A DNA stretch of 64,000 nt from Paludibacteraceae bacterium. GTDB lineage: Bacteria; Bacteroidota; Bacteroidia; Bacteroidales; Paludibacteraceae. How positions within the stretch are numbered: the first letter of the stretch is position 1; the number at the start of each line of letters is the position of its first letter. The notes under the pieces are model-generated. The model did not search any database and had not been told where the DNA came from. It saw only the letters and a program-made list of their open reading frames with translations. The DNA is taken from contig JAGCWA010000059.1 of NCBI GenBank assembly GCA_017962085.1, positions 1-64,000 on the forward strand, read 5' to 3'. This document shows, one piece after another, positions 8,510 to 62,519 of this stretch. A program made the position numbers and the translations under genes.

Positions 8510-9349
8510 ATGAGTTTTTCAGAATTGCGTGATACCGCAGGTTATCAGAAATTCACTGCCCTTGCGTATGGTTTGGGTGCGAGTGTCGTTATTATTGGAG
8601 CGTTGTTCAAGATCATGCACTGGCCAGGTGCAGGTATCGTGTTGACAATCGGTATGTGTACGGAGGCTTTCTTGTTTGCATTGTCCGCATTCGATAAACC
8701 TCACATAGAGTACAAGTGGGATAGAGTATATCCTCAATTGCATGAAGACGAGGAAGGTGCTGTTGGTACAGGTGTGATGAACACTAACGCAGCTAATGCT
8801 GCTGAGGAGAAGAGACTTGAGCTTCAGAAGATCCGTGAAATGGTTGACGGTGAGATGCAAAACTTGAAGGATGGCATCCACAGCTTGAACGTAACTGCAG
8901 GTCAATTGACTGACTTGTCAAGTGCAGCCGCTGTTTCTGGCGAGTATACTAACACTTTGAGACAAGCAACTAGCGCAGCTAGCGCATTCGCTTCTTCTCA
9001 ACAGAGCTTGAAAGAGGCTTCCGAGTCTTTGGATTCTTCTTACAAGAGCATCGCTTCTAGCATCAGCTCTGCTTCTCAAGGTTCTCAGAACTTCGCCGCT
9101 CAAATCGATGGCATCAACAAGAATATTTCGACTATCAACTCTGTATTCGAGCTTCAAGTTAAGTCTGTAAACGAGCAGAACGAGGCTATGAAGACTTTGG
9201 CTTCTGCAGTTAAGACAATCGAAACTTCTTTGAACGGTTCTGCAGCTGAGGCTGAGGAGTACAAGAAACAAGTTGCTTTGTTGGCTTCCCAGATGAAGAG
9301 CTTGAACTCTATCTATGGCGGTATGCTTAGCGCTATGACTATTAAATAA
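8510..9349 (+). CDS. porL: T9SS inner-membrane motor protein PorL/GldL
   Basis: This 279-residue protein has two N-terminal membrane segments (residues ~17-35 and ~40-60) separated by KIMHWPGAG, the conserved GldL turn. A long cytoplasmic coiled-coil-like tail rich in S/A/Q follows (repeated SAASAFASSQQSLKEASESL-type helices). With PorM it forms the proton-driven rotary motor that powers T9SS (known for the family). It lies between porK and porM with short gaps, consistent with a single operon. Confidence 0.96.
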   Translation: MSFSELRDTAGYQKFTALAYGLGASVVIIGALFKIMHWPGAGIVLTIGMCTEAFLFALSAFDKPHIEYKWDRVYPQLHEDEEGAVGTGVMNTNAANAAEEKRLELQKIREMVDGEMQNLKDGIHSLNVTAGQLTDLSSAAAVSGEYTNTLRQATSAASAFASSQQSLKEASESLDSSYKSIASSISSASQGSQNFAAQIDGINKNISTINSVFELQVKSVNEQNEAMKTLASAVKTIETSLNGSAAEAEEYKKQVALLASQMKSLNSIYGGMLSAMTIK

Positions 9350-9387
9350 TAATTTTGGTTTTTTGAATTAACTAAAGAAGTATAATT

Positions 9388-10971
9388 ATGGGTGGCGCTA
9401 AAAATTGTCCGGAAACCCCGAGACAGAAGATGATATCCATGATGTATTTGGTGTTGACCGCAATGCTTGCATTGAACGTGTCTGCCCAGATCTTGAATGG
9501 ATATGCTTTGGTGAACGATTCAATGAAGAAGAACATCACTATCAGTGATGGTAAACTCGAAAACTTGAGCAACGAGTTCGACGGTTTGCTGCATTCAGAC
9601 TCCATCAAAGCTAATAAGGTGAAGCCAAGAGTTGATAGCGTGATCGCTCAGTCTGATGAATTCTGTAAATATATCTCAGAGTTGGAGAAGAAGATCATCA
9701 CGACTATCATGGGTGATCCTAATGCTACAGAGTTGGACGAGTCAATGAATGGTGACTTGAACGTTGCGAGCCAAATCGGTTTGGTTGATAAAGTTGATGG
9801 TAAGACTAACGCTGCGATCTTGAAGGAGAAAATGGAGTCTTATCGTGAGTTTATGGCTACTATCGATACTGCTAAGGCTCAGTCTATTCGTAGTACTTTC
9901 TCTACGGATCCGCTCAGCTCAACTGAGAAGGGTGGTAAGCCAAGAGCATGGGAGTCTGGTGTGTTCGAGGACATGCCTGCTATCGCAACTTTGACAGTGC
10001 TTAACAAGATCAAGAACGATGTGAAGATCACTGAGTCTGAGGCTCTCGCATACTTGATCGGATCTATGGATGCCGGTGACTTCCGTGTGAACAAGATCCA
10101 AGCTCTCGCAATTCCTAATTCAAGCTATATCATGCGTGGTGGTAAGTATTCAGCTCAAATCATCTTGGCTGCTACTGACTCTACTAAGAAGCCAGTTATC
10201 ACTATCAATGGTACTCCATTGGAGAAGGATCGTTATGAGTTCGTTTGTACTTCCGTTGGTACGAAGAAGTATTCAGGTAACATGGTTCTTACTAAGAAGA
10301 ACGGTGAGACTCAAACTTACAACTTCGAGAGCGAGTATACTGTAGGCGAGCCTACTGCTACTGTATCTGCAGACTTGATGAACGTGCTCTATGCCGGTTT
10401 CAAGAACCCAATCAGTGTGTCTGTTCCAGGTGTCGCTGCTAACAGTATCGAGATCAGTCCTTCTAACATCAAGTCTTCTTCTAGAACTGCAACAGGATGG
10501 TTGGTTGTTCCTGCTAAGGTGGGTACTCCTTGTAACATCTCTGTCAGCGCAAAGGTTGATGGTAAGACTCAACACATCGCTACGAAGACATTCCGTGTAA
10601 AGAAGTTGCCAGATCCATTGGCAATGATCGAGTACACGAATGCTCAAGGTATCAAGAGCAGATATAGAGGTAATAGCTTCGATAAGGCTATCGCTAAGCC
10701 TCTCTTGATCACTGCACGTCGTATCGTTGCTGAGTTGAATGATTCAGACTTGGATGTAAAATACAAGGTGCTGGAGTTCTCTTTGAACTATTTCGACTCA
10801 ATGGGTAACACCTTGATCGAGAAAGCATCAGGAGATCAATTGAACGAGAAGCAATTGAAGATCTTTAGAGAGATGACGAACAGAAAGACCGTTTATATCT
10901 CTAACACGAAGGCTCTTGGTCAGGATGGTCTCACTCGTACTTTGCCTCCTGTGGAAGTGAAAATTAAATAA
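9388..10971 (+). CDS. porM: T9SS motor/stalk protein PorM/GldM
   Basis: At 527 residues it begins MGGAKNCPETPRQKMISMMYLVLTAMLALNVS, the conserved GldM N-terminus with one transmembrane helix inserting into the PorL bundle. A large periplasmic region follows (D1-D4 domains in the family) that spans the periplasm to the PorK/PorN ring. KPRAWESGVFEDMPAIA and NKIKNDVKITESEALAYL are recognisable conserved stretches. It sits 38 bases after porL and 22 before porN. Confidence 0.96.
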   Translation: MGGAKNCPETPRQKMISMMYLVLTAMLALNVSAQILNGYALVNDSMKKNITISDGKLENLSNEFDGLLHSDSIKANKVKPRVDSVIAQSDEFCKYISELEKKIITTIMGDPNATELDESMNGDLNVASQIGLVDKVDGKTNAAILKEKMESYREFMATIDTAKAQSIRSTFSTDPLSSTEKGGKPRAWESGVFEDMPAIATLTVLNKIKNDVKITESEALAYLIGSMDAGDFRVNKIQALAIPNSSYIMRGGKYSAQIILAATDSTKKPVITINGTPLEKDRYEFVCTSVGTKKYSGNMVLTKKNGETQTYNFESEYTVGEPTATVSADLMNVLYAGFKNPISVSVPGVAANSIEISPSNIKSSSRTATGWLVVPAKVGTPCNISVSAKVDGKTQHIATKTFRVKKLPDPLAMIEYTNAQGIKSRYRGNSFDKAIAKPLLITARRIVAELNDSDLDVKYKVLEFSLNYFDSMGNTLIEKASGDQLNEKQLKIFREMTNRKTVYISNTKALGQDGLTRTLPPVEVKIK

Positions 10972-54497: not shown

Positions 54498-54968
54498 ATG
54501 GGAAAGAAACGCATTCTTTTTGTCTGCTTGGGCAATATCTGCCGTTCCGCGGCCGCTGAGGCTGTGATGAAGGCGTTGCTGGAGCGCAAGGGCTTGGCGG
54601 GCCGCTACGTGGTGGACTCCGCCGGCATCCTGAACTACCATGCGGGCGAACCTGCCGACCCGCGTATGATCGCCGCCGCGAAGGTGCGGGGCTATGATGT
54701 GACCTCCATCTCGCGACCGGTCCTCTTCAACGACTTCGACGATTTTGATATCATCGTGGGAATGGACGATGACAATGTGGAGTCGCTGATGGACAAGACC
54801 CACACCGACGAGCAACGCAGGAAGATCCACCAAATGACCGAGTTCTGCATCCTGATGCACGACACCTACGTGCCAGACCCCTATTATGGCGGATCGGCTG
54901 GCTTCACCCATGTGATGGACCTGCTGGAGGATGCTTGCGAGGGGCTGCTGAATTACTTGGAGAATTAA
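54498..54968 (+). CDS. Low-molecular-weight protein tyrosine phosphatase
   Basis: This 156-residue protein has the P-loop VCLGNICRS with nucleophile C10 and R16 (C-x5-R) and the general acid in VPDPYYGG (D127). SAGILNYHAGEPADPR is the usual second motif. The fold is cytoplasmic. Targets are not evident; there is no tyrosine kinase or capsule gene in the window, so a role in polysaccharide regulation is not supported by neighbours. Confidence 0.93.
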   Translation: MGKKRILFVCLGNICRSAAAEAVMKALLERKGLAGRYVVDSAGILNYHAGEPADPRMIAAAKVRGYDVTSISRPVLFNDFDDFDIIVGMDDDNVESLMDKTHTDEQRRKIHQMTEFCILMHDTYVPDPYYGGSAGFTHVMDLLEDACEGLLNYLEN

Positions 54969-55019
54969 GAGTTAAGTCTAAAGCCTAAACGTCTAGTGTC
55001 TAAAGTCTAAAGATCTACA
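54969..55019 (+). repeat. Degenerate 7-base tandem repeat
   Basis: Between the phosphatase and the glycosylase gene the sequence is made of near-repeats of AGTCTAA / AGCCTAA / GTGTCTAA (roughly six units). It ends 1 base before the ATG at 55020, so it also forms the ribosome-binding region. Confidence 0.55.
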
Positions 55020-55622
55020 ATGCTGGACATCCAACATATAGAGCGATCGACCGGTTCGGTGGAGTATCATCCGCTGAAACCCTTCCTGCCCTCTTCCGCG
55101 AAGGTGCTTTTCCTAGGCAGTTTTCCTCCGCCGAGAGCCCGTTGGTGCATGGACTTCTTCTATCCTAATTTCATCAATGACCATTGGCGCATTATGGGTT
55201 CCCTCTTTTTCGGGGAGAAGGACTATTTCGTGGAAAGCGGTCGGAAGCGTTTCTGCCTGGAGCACATCGTGGCGTTCCTCCAGCAGACCGGCATCGGCTA
55301 TTATGACACGGCCACGGCGGTCAGGCGCCTGAAGGAGAATGCCTCGGACAAGTTTCTGGAGGTGGTGGAGCTGACCGATGTTGAGGCTCTTTTGAAACGA
55401 ATTTCCTCCTGCAAGGTGGTGGTCACCACGGGCGAGAAAGCCACGCAGAACCTAATGGACTCCTTCTCGTTGCCGGAGATGCCGAAGGTCGGTACCCATG
55501 TCCCGTTGTGCGGTGACACTGTTTTGTTCCGTTTGCCCTCATCCTCGCGCGCCTATCCGCTGAGCCTGGAGAAGAAGGTGGAGGCATATCGTGGGATGTT
55601 CGAATTTGCGGGGATTCTGTGA
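55020..55622 (+). CDS. Uracil-DNA-glycosylase-fold protein (Mug-like)
   Basis: At 200 residues it has VLFLGSFPPPRA near residue 30 (the phosphate-proximal GxxPxP-like loop of the UDG superfamily), GIGYYDTATAVRR, KVVVTTGEKATQ and the C-terminal LPSSSRAYP, matching the SPSS motif that contacts the flipped base. It probably removes uracil or a mismatched base from DNA. The exact family within the superfamily is not certain. The gene is the last before a 505-base A/T-rich gap. Confidence 0.78.
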   Translation: MLDIQHIERSTGSVEYHPLKPFLPSSAKVLFLGSFPPPRARWCMDFFYPNFINDHWRIMGSLFFGEKDYFVESGRKRFCLEHIVAFLQQTGIGYYDTATAVRRLKENASDKFLEVVELTDVEALLKRISSCKVVVTTGEKATQNLMDSFSLPEMPKVGTHVPLCGDTVLFRLPSSSRAYPLSLEKKVEAYRGMFEFAGIL

Positions 55623-55835
55623 AGAATCCGTTTTTTATGTAGATATATATAATAAATATATTCGATGTTTTGATTTGCTCTCTTGTTTACATTGTTAATA
55701 TCGTGTGAAATATTTGTTTATTTAATATTAGTGTGATTGCAAAATAATCTATGCTAAGTGTATGATTTATATGTTTTTAATTATCTATATAGAATATACA
55801 ACGGACAAGAAAATATAAAATAAATATATAAATGC

Positions 55836-55866
55836 TTTGACTTTTCGGTTTTTTAGCATATATTTG
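55836..55866 (+). promoter_or_regulatory. Promoter of the first calpain unit
   Basis: TTTG at 55836-55839, exactly 19 bases, TATATTTG at 55859-55866: the closest match to the Bacteroidetes consensus in this window. Confidence 0.75.
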
Positions 55867-55907
55867 AGTTGATAATAAATAATAAGAGTGTTATTAGTCT
55901 AATATGT

Positions 55908-55959
55908 GTTGATGTGTAATTATTTTAATCGAAAAAACAATTTGATTTGTTGATGTGTA
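55908..55959 (+). repeat. Paired direct repeat GTTGATGTGTA (first leader)
   Basis: Copies at 55908-55918 and 55949-55959. They sit 42 and 83 bases downstream of the -7 box, so within the transcribed leader. Confidence 0.7.
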
Positions 55960-56127
55960 TATGATACTATGTGAGTGTACAGTGTGAATCTTTCCGAGTA
56001 TGGTCTTGAAAAATAGGAGGAATGGTATAGATGTGTCGTTTCTAGGAAGGTTGTCTGCTGGACAGTTCCGGGTTGTTTTTATTATGTAAGTGTAGCACCT
56101 ATTTATTAACTAAATAAATTTAATAAC

Positions 56128-57324
56128 ATGAAACAAGAAATCAAGTTGACCGCCATCAACCCGTTTGCGGTTGCTGAGCAAGTGCTGGGAAAGAAAGTGA
56201 AGTGGGATAGTCTTGAAGATCCGGAGGAGACGTTATCTAGCGTATTTAATGTGCCAAAGAAAGAGTTGTTCGCACATGATTCCATTTTGATAAACCCGAT
56301 GTTGTCCGAGAAGCGTGAGCTTCTGTCTGCGGAGAAAGCACAAGCACGTTTGAAACAATTCCTTGATGGAAAATCTGCTAAAAGATTGTCGTTGAAAAAG
56401 AGTGCGATCTCTGATCGTGTTGCGCTGAAAGAAATATCCAGCAAGACTATGGAGGCGATTTTTGCGAAATCGACACCTGCTGGAACTTCTAATAATACTG
56501 AGTGGAACCCATCCAATGTGGTTTGGTTGGACAAGGGAGATTATTTCGAGGATTTGGCGGAACTGACCGACCCTATACAGGGAGGATTGGCCGATTGTTA
56601 TTTTATCTCCGCCCTTTGTTCTGTGGCATGGTCTAGGCCTTATGCGATCCTCAATTCGACCTCTCCTTACGGAGATGAGGAGTCTCCGTTACACCAAGTC
56701 TTTTTTTATAACGAAAAGGGAGTAAGGGAGTTTGTTGAGGTCGATGAGTTGTGCCCTTGCAATCCAAGCACCCAAAGACTGATCTATGCCTCTTCTTATG
56801 ACGAAGGCGAGATTTGGCCTGCCGTGATGGAGAAAGCCTATGCGAAGTGGAAAACGGGTAACACCACGCAAAAACCTGATTATTCGAAACTCGCATGGGG
56901 CGACCCTGTTGAGGCGTGTCGTCAACTGATTGGCGGAACACCAACATATATGTTTAATAACGAAATGACTGCTAGACAAATCTCCAATGTGGTTAGATAT
57001 AATTCTTTGGATCGTAAAACGATTAATCCGATGGTTGCTTGGACATATTCGACCCAACCGGCAGGATGTGATTATGCGAGCGCGCATATTGTGGCGAGCC
57101 ATGCCTATTCCATTTTGGGTTGGGATAATGATGGCAGCCAATATTATGTTGTCCTCAGGAATCCATGGGGAACGTACCCTGGCGTGTTAGATCGTCTGGG
57201 AGGTAATTATGCTGGCGTGATCAATCGTCTGTGGAATGCGTTCCCATATGGACAGAATGGTGTCTTCGCCATGAAGGTGGAAACATTCAAGAAATATTTC
57301 TATGGTTTTGGTGTAGTGAAATAA
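56128..57324 (+). CDS. Calpain-family (C2) cysteine protease, copy 1
   Basis: This 398-residue protein has an N-terminal ~125-residue domain shared by the three paralogues (LTAINPFAVAEQVLGKKVKWD, VFNVPKKELFAHDS). A calpain catalytic core follows. Q151-GGLAD-C157 is the oxyanion Gln and nucleophile, H325 lies in ASHAYSILGW and N345 in LRNPWG, giving the C-H-N triad in calpain order. There is no signal peptide or membrane segment, unlike the secreted Porphyromonas Tpr protease, so it may act in the cytoplasm or leave by an unknown route. The EF-hand and C2-like domains of animal calpains are absent. It forms a unit with copy 2, only 33 bases downstream. Confidence 0.85.
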   Translation: MKQEIKLTAINPFAVAEQVLGKKVKWDSLEDPEETLSSVFNVPKKELFAHDSILINPMLSEKRELLSAEKAQARLKQFLDGKSAKRLSLKKSAISDRVALKEISSKTMEAIFAKSTPAGTSNNTEWNPSNVVWLDKGDYFEDLAELTDPIQGGLADCYFISALCSVAWSRPYAILNSTSPYGDEESPLHQVFFYNEKGVREFVEVDELCPCNPSTQRLIYASSYDEGEIWPAVMEKAYAKWKTGNTTQKPDYSKLAWGDPVEACRQLIGGTPTYMFNNEMTARQISNVVRYNSLDRKTINPMVAWTYSTQPAGCDYASAHIVASHAYSILGWDNDGSQYYVVLRNPWGTYPGVLDRLGGNYAGVINRLWNAFPYGQNGVFAMKVETFKKYFYGFGVVK

Positions 57325-57357
57325 ACCTTTCTTTATTAACCAAATAAATTTAATAAC

Positions 57358-58551
57358 ATGGAACAAGAACTTAAATTGACCGCTATCAACCCGTTTGCGG
57401 TTGCTGAGCAAGTGTTAGGAAAAAAAGTAAAGTGGGATGAACTTGAAGATCAAGAAGAGTCTCTTGCAGGGGTATTTAATGTGCCGAAGGAAGAGCTGTT
57501 CGCTCACGATTCTGTCATAATTAACCCTATGTTGTCCGCAAAAGGTGAACTTTTGACACGTGAAAAAGCTCAGACTCAGTTGAAAACTTATCTTGAGGCT
57601 AAAACTGTTAAGAAACTGACATTGAAGACTCGATCAATCAAGCAAATCGCATTGAAAGATATCTCTAGTAAAACCATTAATGCAGTCTTCTTGGAATCGG
57701 TTAAATCTGCGAAGAATACGGAGTGGAATCCTGCGAACACTGTATGGTTGGATAAAGGAGACTATTTTGAGGATGTGGCAGAATTGACTGATCCTGTTCA
57801 AGGCTCTTTGGCGGATTGCTATTATATTTCTGCTCTTTGCTCTGTGGCTTGGTCAAGACCGTATGCAATAATCAATGCCACATCTCCGTCTCGTAATGGG
57901 AACGAAGATTCTCCGTTACATCAGGTTCCTTTCTATAACACAAAGGGCACTATAGAAAATGTTGTTGTGGGTGAGGCGGTTCCATGTAGTTCTAGCACGA
58001 AAAACATTCTCTATGCATCATCTGCTGACTCTGGTGAAATATGGCCTGCTGTAATGGAAAAAGCATATGCTAAGTGGAAGACTGGCAACACTACGGATAA
58101 ACCTAATTTCTTGAGTATTGAATATGGTGATTGCGTTGAAGCTTGTCGTCAACTGATCGGTGGCACGAAGACTTACAAGTACACTAGTGATATGACTGCC
58201 AGCCAAATCGCCACATTCGTTAGAAGCAACTCGCTGAGTCGTAGAACATTTAATCCTATGGTCGCTTGGACTCCATCAAGACAACCAAGCGGATGTGATT
58301 ATGCTAAGGCACATATAGTGGCAAACCACGCTTATTCTATATTGGGCTGGGTTTCTAGTAACAATTCCTATTACATTGTCCTCAGAAACCCATGGGGAAC
58401 CTATCATGGAGTATTGGATTGTTTGAGCGGTAGTTATTCGGGTATGCTGAATAATAATTGGCACTGTTTCACATATGGCAGAAATGGTGTTTTTGCCATG
58501 AAAGTGGATACCTTCAAGAAGTATTTCAGTGGCTTAGGCGTAGTGAAATAA
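57358..58551 (+). CDS. Calpain-family (C2) cysteine protease, copy 2
   Basis: At 397 residues it is collinear with copy 1. The catalytic residues are C154 in VQGSLADCYYISA, H324 in ANHAYSILGW and N344 in LRNPWG. The N-terminal domain (LTAINPFAVAEQVLGKKVKWD, KEELFAHDSVIINP) is retained, but the linker (KTRSIKQIALKDISSK) differs most. It has no separate leader: only 33 bases separate it from copy 1, yet these repeat the conserved pre-start segment CTTTATTAACCAAATAAATTTAATAAC-like sequence. It ends 49 bases before a terminator. Substrate unknown; no inhibitor or target gene is visible. Confidence 0.85.
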   Translation: MEQELKLTAINPFAVAEQVLGKKVKWDELEDQEESLAGVFNVPKEELFAHDSVIINPMLSAKGELLTREKAQTQLKTYLEAKTVKKLTLKTRSIKQIALKDISSKTINAVFLESVKSAKNTEWNPANTVWLDKGDYFEDVAELTDPVQGSLADCYYISALCSVAWSRPYAIINATSPSRNGNEDSPLHQVPFYNTKGTIENVVVGEAVPCSSSTKNILYASSADSGEIWPAVMEKAYAKWKTGNTTDKPNFLSIEYGDCVEACRQLIGGTKTYKYTSDMTASQIATFVRSNSLSRRTFNPMVAWTPSRQPSGCDYAKAHIVANHAYSILGWVSSNNSYYIVLRNPWGTYHGVLDCLSGSYSGMLNNNWHCFTYGRNGVFAMKVDTFKKYFSGLGVVK

Positions 58552-58600
58552 AAACATCTTCTTGTTGGTTCGTTCAGTAATTAGCTGACCAATTTTTCAC

Positions 58601-58644
58601 ACGTCCGCAATGTCGAATATATAGGCGTTGCGGACGTTTTTTTG
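58601..58644 (+). terminator. Terminator of the first calpain unit
   Basis: ACGTCCGCAA and TTGCGGACGT form a perfect 10-base-pair stem followed by T7. A related hairpin follows copy 3. Confidence 0.85.
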
Positions 58645-58825
58645 TCTAAGGTTGGATGCGTCCCCTTCCCGATTGTTGGCGTTTCGTTCCCTTCCTTTTG
58701 TGGAATTTAAAAATCCGTTCCGTGGTTTTGTATTGTTATATATCAAAATAATAATTCGTGTATTTGTATTAAATGTTTGTATAATAATCTAATAACAATA
58801 AAATACAGTAAAAATAGATAATAAA

Positions 58826-58857
58826 TTTGTTTGTTAGGATTTTTTATCTTATATTTG
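58826..58857 (+). promoter_or_regulatory. Promoter of the second calpain unit
   Basis: TTTG at 58826-58829, 20 bases, TATATTTG at 58850-58857. The flanking bases (TTTTTTA...TATATTTGA.TTGATA) match those of the first unit. Confidence 0.7.
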
Positions 58858-58898
58858 AATTGATAGAAAATAATAGATATATCATTATTGTAATGTTT

Positions 58899-58950
58899 GT
58901 TGATGTGTAATATTTTTATTTAATAAAATAATTCGTTTTGTTGATGTGTA
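58899..58950 (+). repeat. Paired direct repeat GTTGATGTGTA (second leader)
   Basis: Copies at 58899-58909 and 58940-58950, the same unit and the same 41-base period as in the first leader. Confidence 0.7.
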
Positions 58951-59113
58951 TGCGTCTTAGCATAGGTGTATGATGGATTTTTTCCGTGAGTAAGCGTATG
59001 GAATGGAGAGCGGATGGTGTTATTCTTGCTCTCGGGGCAGAACATGTCTGAACGTTTTTGGATTGTTGATGTAAGTATTGCACCTTTTTTATTAACCAAA
59101 TATATTTAATAAC

Positions 59114-60322
59114 ATGGAACAAGAAGTTAATTTGACGGCCATCAACCCGTATGCGATTGGTGAGCAAGTGTTGGGAAAGAAAGTACAGTGGGATAAGTTA
59201 GAGGATCCTGAAGAGACGTTGGCAAGTATTTTCAACGTGCCAAAAAAAGAGTTGTTTGCGCATGATTCTATTCTGATTAATCCGATGTTGTCAGAAAAAC
59301 GTGAGGTTTTGTCGGTCGATAAAGCCCAGGACCGTCTGAAACAATATCTCGAAGGAAAAACTGTCAAGAGATTGTCGGTGACGAAGGGAACGGTCGCTAA
59401 GCGTATCACGTTGAAGGATATTCCTTTAAGAACACTGGAGGCGATCTTCGATAGGAATAAGCTTGTTCCTATTACCAGTGTGGAGTGGAATCCTGCAAAT
59501 ACCGTTTGGTTGGATAAAGGAGACTATTTTGAGGATGTGGCTGAAATGAACGACCCTATCCAGGGTGGATTGGGTGATTGTTATTTCATCGCGGCTCTTA
59601 GTTCTGTGGCTTGGTCCAGACCTTATGCGATTATCAATGCTACATCACCTTACACCAGTGATGAATCCCCTATGCACCAAGTCTCTTTTTACAACAATAA
59701 TGGTGTAAAGGAGAATGTCGAGGTGAATGAACTCTGCCCTTGTAGCTCAAGCACTCAAAGGTTGCTCTATGCCACTTCCCTCGACGAAGGCGAGATTTGG
59801 CCTGGCGTGATGGAGAAGGCTTATGTGAAGTGGAGAACCGGAAATACTACACAGAAGCCTAATTATCCGGCAATCGCTGGTGGTGATCCTGTTGAGGCTT
59901 GCCGTCAACTGATCGGTGGTAAGAAGACTTATAAGTACACAAGTAGCACGACTGCCGCTGAAATTACTTCGTTTATTAAGAGTAATTCGTTACAGATTAA
60001 TAGTTATCACGGAAGAACAGTCAATCCGATGGTCGCATGGACACCTTCCTCTCAACCGAAAGGATGTGACTATGAGGGGGCGCATATCGTGGCGAGTCAC
60101 GCGTACTCAATCTTGGGTTGGGTTACCAGCAATGGCTCTTCATACGTTGTTCTCAGAAACCCATGGGGAGTGCATCCTGGTGTGATAGATAATTTGGGAG
60201 GTTCTTTCCTTGCACCGTTTAATGGCATGTCCCATGGCTTCTCGTATGGACAAAATGGTGTTTTCGCCATGGGCGTAAGCACCTTTAAGAGGTATTTCTA
60301 CGGTTTAGGTGTATCGAAATAA
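59114..60322 (+). CDS. Calpain-family (C2) cysteine protease, copy 3
   Basis: This 402-residue protein has the canonical calpain spelling GLGDCYF around the nucleophile C156 (copies 1 and 2 have LADC). H329 lies in ASHAYSILGW and N349 in LRNPWG. The N-terminal domain (LTAINPYAIGEQVLGKKVQWD, KKELFAHDSILINPMLSEKRE) is closest to that of copy 1. A six-residue insertion (NSYHGR region) precedes the VNPMVAWTPS segment. It has its own leader and promoter and a terminator 50 bases after the stop. No signal peptide. All three copies keep an intact triad, so none looks like a pseudoenzyme. Confidence 0.85.
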   Translation: MEQEVNLTAINPYAIGEQVLGKKVQWDKLEDPEETLASIFNVPKKELFAHDSILINPMLSEKREVLSVDKAQDRLKQYLEGKTVKRLSVTKGTVAKRITLKDIPLRTLEAIFDRNKLVPITSVEWNPANTVWLDKGDYFEDVAEMNDPIQGGLGDCYFIAALSSVAWSRPYAIINATSPYTSDESPMHQVSFYNNNGVKENVEVNELCPCSSSTQRLLYATSLDEGEIWPGVMEKAYVKWRTGNTTQKPNYPAIAGGDPVEACRQLIGGKKTYKYTSSTTAAEITSFIKSNSLQINSYHGRTVNPMVAWTPSSQPKGCDYEGAHIVASHAYSILGWVTSNGSSYVVLRNPWGVHPGVIDNLGGSFLAPFNGMSHGFSYGQNGVFAMGVSTFKRYFYGLGVSK

Positions 60323-60372
60323 CATCTATTCCTGCTTGTTAGCTTAGTAATATAACTGACAAAATTTTCCAC

Positions 60373-60420
60373 CCGTCCGCGATGCCGAAAAATATATAGG
60401 CGTTGCGGACGGTTCTTTTT
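60373..60420 (+). terminator. Terminator of the second calpain unit
   Basis: CCGTCCGC (60373-60380) and GCGGACGG (60405-60412) pair and are followed by TTCTTTTT. The loop (ATATATAGGCGTT) is shared with the terminator of the first unit. Confidence 0.8.
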
Positions 60421-60467
60421 GATCCGTGATGGATGTGTGGTTGGTGGGAACCCGTTCGGATGGTTCC

Positions 60468-62519
60468 TTACTTCCCTTCCTCCTCCTTCTTGTTCAGCTC
60501 CGGATAGATGATGCGGGTGTGGTAGATGGTCTTGAGCTTCTCCTTGAGGACCGCCTTGATTTCGTTGATTTCCTTGAAGGTGATAGGGGTCTCCTCGAAG
60601 ATGCCATCCCGAATTTGGTCGGAGATGATTTTCTCCACGAGGTCGTTGATGCTCTTGTCCGTATATTCCTGCAGGCTTCTGGAGGCCGCCTCCACGGAGT
60701 CGCACATGACTAGGATGGCCATCTCCTTCGAGGTCGGCAACGGTCCAGGGTAGGTGAATTTGGATTCGTCGATCTCCCTGTCAGGATATTTATTCTTCAT
60801 GGTGTAGTAGAAGTATTTCGTTTTGCTCTTCCCATGGTGTGTCTTGATGAACTCCTGAATCTTCTCAGGCAATCCGTATTTCTTCGCGATCTCCACACCG
60901 TCCGCCACGTGGCGGATGATGATCTGTGCGCTTTTCTCCTCGTCGTTCATCTCGGTGTGCGGGTTCTTGCTCGACTGGTTCTCCGTGAAGAAAGCAGGGT
61001 TCTTCATCTTGCCGATGTCGTGGTAGAGCGCGCCCGTCCTCACTAACATTGGGTTGGCGCCGATGCAGCTGGCCGCGTCGGATGCGAGGTTGGATACCTG
61101 CATGGAGTGCTGGAAACTGCCCGGAGCCTCCTCGGAGAACTTCCTGAGGAGTGAGTTGTTCGTGTTCGCCAGCTCCACCAGCGTGACGTCCGACACATAG
61201 CCGAACAGCTTCTCCACGATGTAGATGAGCGGGTTGGCGAGCAGGAGCAGCAGACCGTTGCCGAGGAAGATCGGGAACATCGTCCACTCGAAATGCTCCA
61301 GTCCGTTCTCGTGCACCAACGTGTTGCCCACATAGATGATGCAGTAGGAGAGGGTGATGAGTATGGCGGCCTGCACAAGCTGTGAGCGCATGAAGATGTT
61401 CTTCAGGGTGCAGATGGAGATCATGCCCGCGATGGATTGCATCAGCAGGAACTCGAAGTCGTTCGGCACGATGAAGGAGGAGAGGAGCACAGCCGTGAGG
61501 TGGGCGAAGAGCGCCGTCCTCGTGTCGAAGAAACAGGTCACCAGGATAGGCAACAGCGCGTACGGCACGATGTTAGGCGTATATTCGTTCTTGACCATGA
61601 TGGAGGTGAGCACGCAGAGGATGGTGATCATGCCTAACATGAACGCCACGTTCTTGAAGTTCACCAGGAATTTCCTCCTGAATAGTAATAGGTAGAGGTA
61701 GAATGCGCATAGAATGATGGTGATGATGATGATTTGTCCGATCATGACCAGCTGTTTGTTCGTCTTGTCGCTGTTCTCCTGCACGGCGGATCTGAGCGAT
61801 TCGAGGATATCGTAGGTTTGGGCCTTGACGATCTCTCCGTGGTCGATGATCTTCTCTCCGCTTTGGATCCTACCCTTGGTGAGGGATATGGACTTCAGCA
61901 GTTCCTTCTTCACCGACTCGTTTTTCTCCTTGTCGTAGGTGAGGTTTTCGTGGATATAGTTGTTGATGTTATAGCCCTGGAGCGTCTCCTTGTCGAGCGA
62001 GGCGGGGATTCCGTTGATGATGTGCTCGTAGGCCGTTTTGGTGGTGTGGAGGGAAGCGACGGAACGGTTCTTCGATCGGTTGCCGGTCAGGACGTTGATT
62101 TCGCTCTTCTTCTCCTCGTTCAGTTTGTCCATGTCGTCGGCGGAGATGATGCCGTTGGCGTAGAGAGATTTCAGCTTGCGGGCGATGTAGTTCTTGTAGT
62201 CGTCCGCCGCGTCGTCCTCCTCCTTGCCGAACTTCTCGTTCAGGAGGTTGATGTACTTGTTGGAGACGCTCTCGTCGTTGATGAAGAACGGGTTGAAGTC
62301 GCTCAGCAGACTATCCTCCTCCCTTTTGACATCCTCCTTGGATTTCATGATCTCGAAGGCGAAGGGCGCGGTGAGCGCATCATACTCCCAAGGCTTTTCG
62401 ACGGCGTAGTTGTATTTGAACTTCCCGAAGTTCGGGTAAGTTTTGAATATGATCAGACCAGCGGCGAAGAACATAGCCGCGATGGTGATGTAGCGCATAT
62501 ACGAGTTTTTGCTTTTCAT
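60468..62519 (-). CDS. 7TM-HD membrane phosphodiesterase (PgpH-like)
   Basis: At 683 residues it has an N-terminal transmembrane helix (YITIAAMFFAAGLIIF) and an extracytoplasmic ~270-residue 7TMR-HDED-type domain. A block of about seven membrane helices follows (QLVMIGQIIIITIILCAFYLYLLLF through PIFLGNGLLLLLANPLIYI), then a cytoplasmic HD domain with SFQHSMQVSNLA, TGALYHDIGKMKNP and the downstream IIRHVADGVEIAKKYG. PgpH-type proteins hydrolyse the second messenger c-di-AMP (family knowledge). It is convergent with the calpain genes and apparently monocistronic. Confidence 0.92.
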   Translation of the reverse strand: MKSKNSYMRYITIAAMFFAAGLIIFKTYPNFGKFKYNYAVEKPWEYDALTAPFAFEIMKSKEDVKREEDSLLSDFNPFFINDESVSNKYINLLNEKFGKEEDDAADDYKNYIARKLKSLYANGIISADDMDKLNEEKKSEINVLTGNRSKNRSVASLHTTKTAYEHIINGIPASLDKETLQGYNINNYIHENLTYDKEKNESVKKELLKSISLTKGRIQSGEKIIDHGEIVKAQTYDILESLRSAVQENSDKTNKQLVMIGQIIIITIILCAFYLYLLLFRRKFLVNFKNVAFMLGMITILCVLTSIMVKNEYTPNIVPYALLPILVTCFFDTRTALFAHLTAVLLSSFIVPNDFEFLLMQSIAGMISICTLKNIFMRSQLVQAAILITLSYCIIYVGNTLVHENGLEHFEWTMFPIFLGNGLLLLLANPLIYIVEKLFGYVSDVTLVELANTNNSLLRKFSEEAPGSFQHSMQVSNLASDAASCIGANPMLVRTGALYHDIGKMKNPAFFTENQSSKNPHTEMNDEEKSAQIIIRHVADGVEIAKKYGLPEKIQEFIKTHHGKSKTKYFYYTMKNKYPDREIDESKFTYPGPLPTSKEMAILVMCDSVEAASRSLQEYTDKSINDLVEKIISDQIRDGIFEETPITFKEINEIKAVLKEKLKTIYHTRIIYPELNKKEEEGK

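Follow-up and report, generated by a model that had tools for sequence, protein, structure and literature searches.

Tandem calpain-family protease genes with a shared N-terminal domain at a variable site of a Paludibacteraceae genome, and a conserved gene beside their relatives

Three collinear open reading frames (ORFs) of a Paludibacteraceae bacterium encode calpain-family (C2) cysteine proteases that share an N-terminal domain (NTD) of about 125 residues. They lie in a window of 64,000 nucleotides (nt) of contig JAGCWA010000059.1 (assembly GCA_017962085.1, genome G000 below), the whole stretch of DNA analysed here, in two transcription units of a site whose contents differ between sister species. 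Relatives with the same NTD–C2 architecture are rare and patchy, and in 14 of the 19 genomes that carry one at full length a small partner gene adjoins the calpain gene. We tentatively favour a reading in which protease and partner form a guarded pair, working like protealysin and emfourin and borne on cassettes in this genus, a possibility that we rate a little short of even. What is new here is chiefly that the partner gene is conserved, that the units are laid out as cassettes and that one copy was probably exchanged between species.

ORF1, ORF2 and ORF3 are genuine C2 proteases and no artefact. Besides the Pfam matches (Table 1), solved calpains are matched with E values down to 3.7e-11 for ORF1 alone and 3.9e-19 for a nine-row profile. 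An earlier note on this DNA, made from the sequence alone, had described three collinear ORFs with an intact C–H–N triad, and this was borne out: C157, H325 and N345 (ORF1 numbering throughout), together with the oxyanion glutamine Q151, are conserved without exception in the 12 aligned relatives. The sequence motifs listed there also read as described, except that ORF3 has IFNVPKK where VFNVPK was claimed. The three proteins are 67–70% identical in pairs, and ratios of non-synonymous to synonymous divergence (dN/dS) of about 0.08–0.16, on saturated dS, indicate purifying selection between them. A structure model of ORF1 is weak, with a mean predicted local distance difference test (pLDDT) score of 56.5; its best Foldseek match is the calpain-1 core 1kxr (E 7.4e-8, template modelling score 0.34). 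Searching with PF00648 recovered three C2 genes in G000, with no further one besides ORF1–ORF3, and one in each of ten other genomes searched. Against PHROG, the whole proteins had no match below E 0.061.

The CBSW and penta-EF-hand domains of classical calpains were not found, Peptidase_C2 being the sole Pfam domain over the cut-off and its match reaching residue 352–395 of about 400 in the three proteins. For calcium, we take the calpain-1 ligands to be D106 and E185 at site 1 and E302, D309, D331 and E333 at site 2. In the alignments, D148 and E235 fall on the presumed site 1 acids and do not vary among the 12 sequences, and the acids presumed for site 2, which follow NPWG, are not conserved.

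The partner gene is most regular in genus g40, which we take by eye to be flavobacterial-looking. There it lies on the same strand as the calpain gene in 11 of 11 genomes, across gaps of 11–14 nt; in three further genomes, of two other phyla, it adjoins in the reversed order. In a fifteenth genome, the sister species G091, the neighbour is instead an I42 chagasin-type inhibitor. By analogy, the small adjoining protein most likely inhibits the calpain. A profile of five partners, run on 10 of the 19 genomes, recovered the same five genes, from which it had been built, and gave no other strong match. Examples of the partner family with a predicted fold like Mago nashi stand at 9315–9716 of locus L007 and at 8852–9241 of L045. 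Placement in the emfourin family was dropped, there being no Pfam or NCBIfam match. A conserved partner beside a defined calpain architecture offers a direct experimental handle. It would also give a bacterial example of a calpain that is controlled although it lacks the regulatory domains of classical calpains, and a small protein from bacteria whose fold is predicted to be Mago-like.

None of the three window proteins has a signal peptide: the N termini are free of hydrophobic stretches, and an in-frame stop seven codons 5′ of each start leaves no room for an upstream extension. NCBIfam gave no match to a C-terminal sorting domain of the type IX secretion system at E up to 1. The earlier note was thus right that signal peptides are missing, and less so in treating this as a distinguishing feature, since in the available part of a survey of bacterial calpains (PMC4631099) signal peptides are predicted in 3 of 66 proteins and the other 63 are like ours; a missing signal peptide is therefore ordinary for the group.

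The NTD could be assigned no better than before. Twelve members gave a best Pfam E value of 0.063, the weak matches being to four families with one member each, and comparison with the PDB gave nothing credible (best E 0.033). In the weak model the NTD is helical, with helices at residues 12–20, 32–40, 44–47 and 68–80 at pLDDT around 60–70; residues 83–154 fall below 50, and the linker to the C2 domain is probably flexible. A search with the NTD alone, as the earlier note had suggested, covered the 306 genomes of one family, that of G511, and gave 11 matches, all full-length calpains with no other fusion partner. NTD matches in the family, phylum and other-group searches likewise all lie in calpain ORFs and on no other catalytic domain, although these full-length searches could miss a lone NTD. 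The domain may be a control or targeting part.

The three genes form two transcription units, ORF1 with ORF2 and ORF3 alone, each made up with a promoter-leader element of about 165 base pairs (bp) and a terminator-like hairpin (Table 1). By the Bacteroidales consensus, the promoter looks to be of that type. Further copies of the element precede the calpain gene of the sister species G027 (Bacteroidales UBA1181), the calpain gene of G091 and a C25-like gene of G091. These five copies, four before calpain units and one before the C25-like unit, find one another in leave-one-out searches with E values from 2.1e-20 to 7.2e-27, and the element is thus a mark of the units found at this site. A promoter-leader in common suggests joint activation of these units. 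The window has two copies of a 13-bp hairpin core, against 0.06 expected; among 123 loci the exact form of this core is confined to this site in G000 and G091 and to one place inside an operon for an extracellular contractile injection system (eCIS) in G027, and it does not stand behind the G027 calpain gene. An Rfam scan of 54900–60500 gave two matches, both far below the gathering score, and a sigma-70-type promoter scan was uninformative (18 sites against 12.8 in shuffles), its terminator rule missing both hairpins. The gaps between the site genes hold no credible small ORF.

Table 1 Features of the variable site and its edges in the 64,000-nt window
Feature	Position	Strand	Evidence and remarks
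Left-edge gene of the variable site	55020..55622	+	Presumably uracil-DNA-glycosylase-like (by eye); also at the left edge in G027 (L013) and G091 (L016, L123); dS to G027 0.283
Promoter-leader element 1, before ORF1	55799..55964	+	TTTG-N19-TATATTTG promoter-like site and two GTTGATGTGTA repeats; nhmmer leave-one-out E 7.2e-27
ORF1, NTD-calpain protease, 398 amino acids (aa)	56128..57324	+	PF00648 (Peptidase_C2) E 1.6e-23; NTD about 56128–56502; C157, H325, N345
ORF2, NTD-calpain protease, 397 aa	57358..58551	+	PF00648 E 2.7e-26; 33 bp 3′ of ORF1, one unit with ORF1
Terminator-like hairpin, end of unit 1	58601..58637	+	14-bp stem followed by a run of T; RNA fold −31.7 kcal/mol, z −5.7
Promoter-leader element 2, before ORF3	58789..58956	+	nhmmer leave-one-out E 1e-26
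ORF3, NTD-calpain protease, 402 aa	59114..60322	+	PF00648 E 5.8e-21; near-identical to the sole G027 calpain
Tract of near-identity with G027	59147..60346		97–100% in every 100-column block; 25–86% in blocks before, 60% in the block after
Terminator-like hairpin, end of unit 2	60373..60412	+	RNA fold −34.7 kcal/mol, z −6.7
7TMR-HD gene, right edge of the site	60468..62519	−	Pfam 7TM-7TMR_HD E 5.6e-29, HD E 4e-16

The left-edge gene and the 7TMR-HD gene enclose different contents in sister species of the genus, in which a calpain gene was found in 3 of 16 genomes searched. In G027, one calpain gene is followed by an eCIS operon, which lies between it and the 7TMR-HD gene (L013 17780 to L014 19117), with matches for an AAA ATPase, sheath, tube proteins, spike, gp25, Pvc16 and two eCIS_core proteins, and with two large proteins without a match that are probably baseplate components. 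In G091 (L123 2425–7162), a calpain, the I42 chagasin-family inhibitor (E 6.4e-11) and a papain-family protein (E 5.2e-21) stand in a row, and a C25-like protein follows behind the second promoter-leader copy of that site. The G091 calpain is divergent (40% identical), and by eye the proteins of the site have no obvious signal peptide. Assignment of the last protein to C25 proper was given up, because a fragment scores 20.9 bits against a Pfam cut-off of 23 and the whole protein has no match at E 0.001; we therefore call it only C25-like. One site thus hosts protease units and a contractile injection system in sister species, possibly under one switch.

One of the window copies seems to have moved recently. 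ORF3 and the G027 calpain gene differ by a dS of 0.039 and encode proteins with 98.8% amino-acid identity; for seven other genes compared between the two genomes dS is 0.20–0.70. These are 0.22 for an LMW-PTP-like gene, 0.283 for the left-edge gene, 0.237 for priA, 0.383 for the first 1200 bases of deaD, 0.206 for rplC, 0.199 for rplB and 0.698 for the 7TMR-HD gene; all names but the last, which comes from Pfam, are presumed by eye. The near-identical tract ends close to the ends of ORF3, amid diverged flanks. Because a coding-length tract of this kind is explained best so, ORF3 was probably exchanged recently between species, as little more than its coding sequence; the alternative is an unusual constraint on silent sites. 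Among themselves, the three window copies have saturated dS (1.3–2.6), and together with the G027 gene they form one clade (support 99/99). The local amplification proposed in the earlier note is therefore upheld as a single clade, but the amplification is old, is split between two units and includes one copy probably exchanged between species.

Full-length relatives occur in four phyla: in G000, G027, G091 and G414, in Saccharophagus K07, Burkholderiales UBA6064, Clostridia RGIG1529 and a metagenome-assembled genome (MAG) of Phycisphaerae, and in 11 genomes of g40. Counted with the own or centre genome, matches were found in 3 of 200 genomes of the own family, 6 of 395 of the phylum (four of them with an NTD match) and 11 of 306 of the G511 family; three other groups gave 2 of 369, 8 of 343 and 1 of 321, and in each of these the centre genome is the sole full-length member. 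The genes of Burkholderiales and Phycisphaerae form a group (97/92), suggesting transfer between phyla or else a mis-binned contig. The tree gives modest support (90/76) to a single origin of the 21 NTD-calpain rows, with long branches meeting at G091; for the outgroup, 3 of 15 loci tried passed the motif filter, a C2 protein of genome G267 being among those dropped.

Several Planctomycetota genomes (L031–L043; G1099, G1156 and others) each hold several separate C2-domain ORFs without an NTD match, two of them with three and at least four ORFs with C2 matches. The idea that three copies in one genome are unprecedented was dropped, since both Planctomycetota and Herpetosiphon have several C2 genes; copies in such number are not unheard of. 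The available text of the survey states one calpain per bacterial species, yet names three Herpetosiphon homologues (PMC4631099). A plasmid origin was also discarded: of 72,556 plasmid records one matched, from Calothrix, in the catalytic domain only and at 27% identity.

We propose, by analogy with protealysin and emfourin, that the window genes would supply cysteine proteases that are produced in the cytosol and kept under restraint until they are called for. They would belong to a rare family that usually takes the form of a two-gene module, a protease and a small adjoining guard, as emfourin guards protealysin. In this genus the protease would be a cassette with its own promoter-leader and terminator at a variable site, filled according to species with calpains alone, with a calpain, I42 inhibitor, papain and C25-like protein, or with a calpain beside an eCIS operon. 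Its likely targets would be proteins of other cells or, should the guard be lost, those of the producing cell, with action after lysis or via a release route. As no guard gene stands beside the window calpains, the NTD or an unlinked factor would do that job. A bolder version seems unlikely to us: a guarded-protease system in at least four phyla, with the NTD-calpain as blade and the Mago-fold protein as guard of an effector–immunity pair against other cells, the Bacteroidales form being an exchangeable arsenal site in which calpain, papain/C25-like and contractile-injection units are swapped behind one promoter-leader. An interbacterial cysteine protease toxin has been published (PMC12136450, available in part).

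Several observations weigh against the guarded pair. The partner matched no family in Pfam or NCBIfam, and its predicted fold is nearest to Mago nashi and not to an inhibitor. No partner or inhibitor was recognised beside the three window copies (I42 was not searched genome-wide) or beside the calpains of G027, G202 and G414; the best matches to the partner profile have E 0.23 in G000 and 0.12 in G027, and G202 and G414 gave none. By eye, two of the three partners outside g40 look like lipoproteins, which is awkward for a cytosolic guard. In g40 the surroundings of the pair are stable: one flank carries the same gene in 11 of 11 genomes, and the other carries either of two genes (in 8 and 3). 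This looks more like vertical inheritance than like the swapping of a weapon, and would suit a house role. Three of the four relatives outside Bacteroidota (Burkholderiales, Phycisphaerae and Clostridia) are MAG contigs that may be mis-binned. For the cassette, a sixth element copy, before a G027 eCIS_core gene, is weak (leave-one-out E 0.021, pairwise BLAST E 2e-6), and the scan that found two clear copies and one further match at E 0.96 in G000 took in 409 kb (4 kb of it double) of a 3.37-Mb genome. The earlier note's suggestion of a cytoplasmic regulated protease is partly supported, by the lack of a classical export signal and, among the relatives, by the partner in 14 of 19 genomes and the I42 inhibitor in one more; the window copies have no partner beside them.

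A purely intracellular role is a somewhat doubtful alternative. In the manner of eukaryotic calpains, the protease would trim a few of the cell's own proteins when it is under stress, with an adaptor or regulator, not a guard, as its partner. The stable neighbourhood in g40, the invariant acids at the presumed calcium site 1, the purifying selection and the lack of any signal peptide or strongly hydrophobic segment would all suit such an enzyme. Its spread does not: 3 of 16 genomes in the genus, 3 of 200 in the family and one full-length member in each of the three other groups make a patchy distribution, and neither three copies in one genome nor a tract almost identical in two species would be expected of a house regulator.

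We consider it improbable that the proteases are eCIS cargo with the NTD as a loading tag. The G027 calpain does adjoin an eCIS operon, the one eCIS_core gene of G414 lies on a different contig from the calpain, and an eCIS-like locus of G267 contains a fusion of a C2 domain with eCIS_core. But that fusion shows no NTD, and the ORF3 protein is almost unchanged whether or not an eCIS lies next to it. Neither Pvc16 (PF14065) nor eCIS_core (PF13699) was matched in G000, whose assembly is 96.96% complete, or in G091, G200, G201, G202 and G203, and G511 and G215 gave no eCIS_core match. With Pvc16 in one of seven genomes (G027) and eCIS_core in 3 of 11 (G027, G414 and G267), we rejected cargo as the general role. 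Still less probable is an anti-phage abortive-infection effector that is triggered by infection and destroys its own cell, for which a variable site, a patchy spread and a cytosolic protease would be fitting. PADLOC had no match for ORF1 or ORF2, and its match of residues 63–136 of ORF3 to an E1–E2 model (E 0.0084, 13 bits) is probably chance; no other ORF lies between the edges of the window site to serve as a sensor. No phage record was matched, and of 124 pattern matches on viral contigs none was confirmed, on which grounds a phage origin of the genes was dropped as well.

Among known systems, the closest likeness in working to the guarded pair that we favour is protealysin of Serratia proteamaculans, which the available text describes as intracellular, with its inhibitor emfourin in the same operon and a proposed role as an effector–immunity pair (PMC9505478). 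Alike are a protease without a signal peptide and, in the relatives, a small adjoining gene; unlike are the catalytic class (a metalloprotease there, a cysteine protease here), the partner's lack of a known inhibitor family and the absence of any partner beside the window copies. The bacterial calpains described in the available part of the survey (PMC4631099) are rare and patchy too, keep calcium site 1 in some members only, and share with the window proteins the C-terminal catalytic domain, triad and oxyanion glutamine. The window proteins differ in an NTD without a Pfam family and in three tandem copies, and their relatives in having a partner; the EF-hand, discoidin, WXG100 and PPC domains named in that part of the survey were not matched in them.

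Tpr of Porphyromonas gingivalis, another Bacteroidales C2 peptidase, had been cited in the earlier note as secreted. This agrees with its description as an outer-membrane-bound surface protease (PMC5266723, available part) and less well with its place outside the three proteins with predicted signal peptides (PMC4631099, available part). Tpr has variants that form a mosaic and are exchanged between strains, and it is lacking in one strain (PMC5266723); this parallels the probable exchange of ORF3 between species. At 503 aa and bound to the outer membrane, it differs from the window proteins, and we liken the two by description, not by sequence. Literature other than subscription papers, in so far as it was accessible, yielded no description of the NTD, of the calpain–partner pairing or of tandem bacterial calpains.

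The fusion in G267 (L047 9350–10993, minus strand) is a further link, in Bacteroidota, between a C2 domain and a contractile injection system; it differs from the window proteins in being joined to eCIS_core inside an eCIS-like locus. Elsewhere in G000, on contig C36 (L012 5235–14294 and 14342–19009), two neighbouring genes encode very large proteins (3019 and 1555 aa) that closely resemble each other in their N-terminal stretches; the same locus holds the start of a third, and all lie downstream of ribosomal protein genes.

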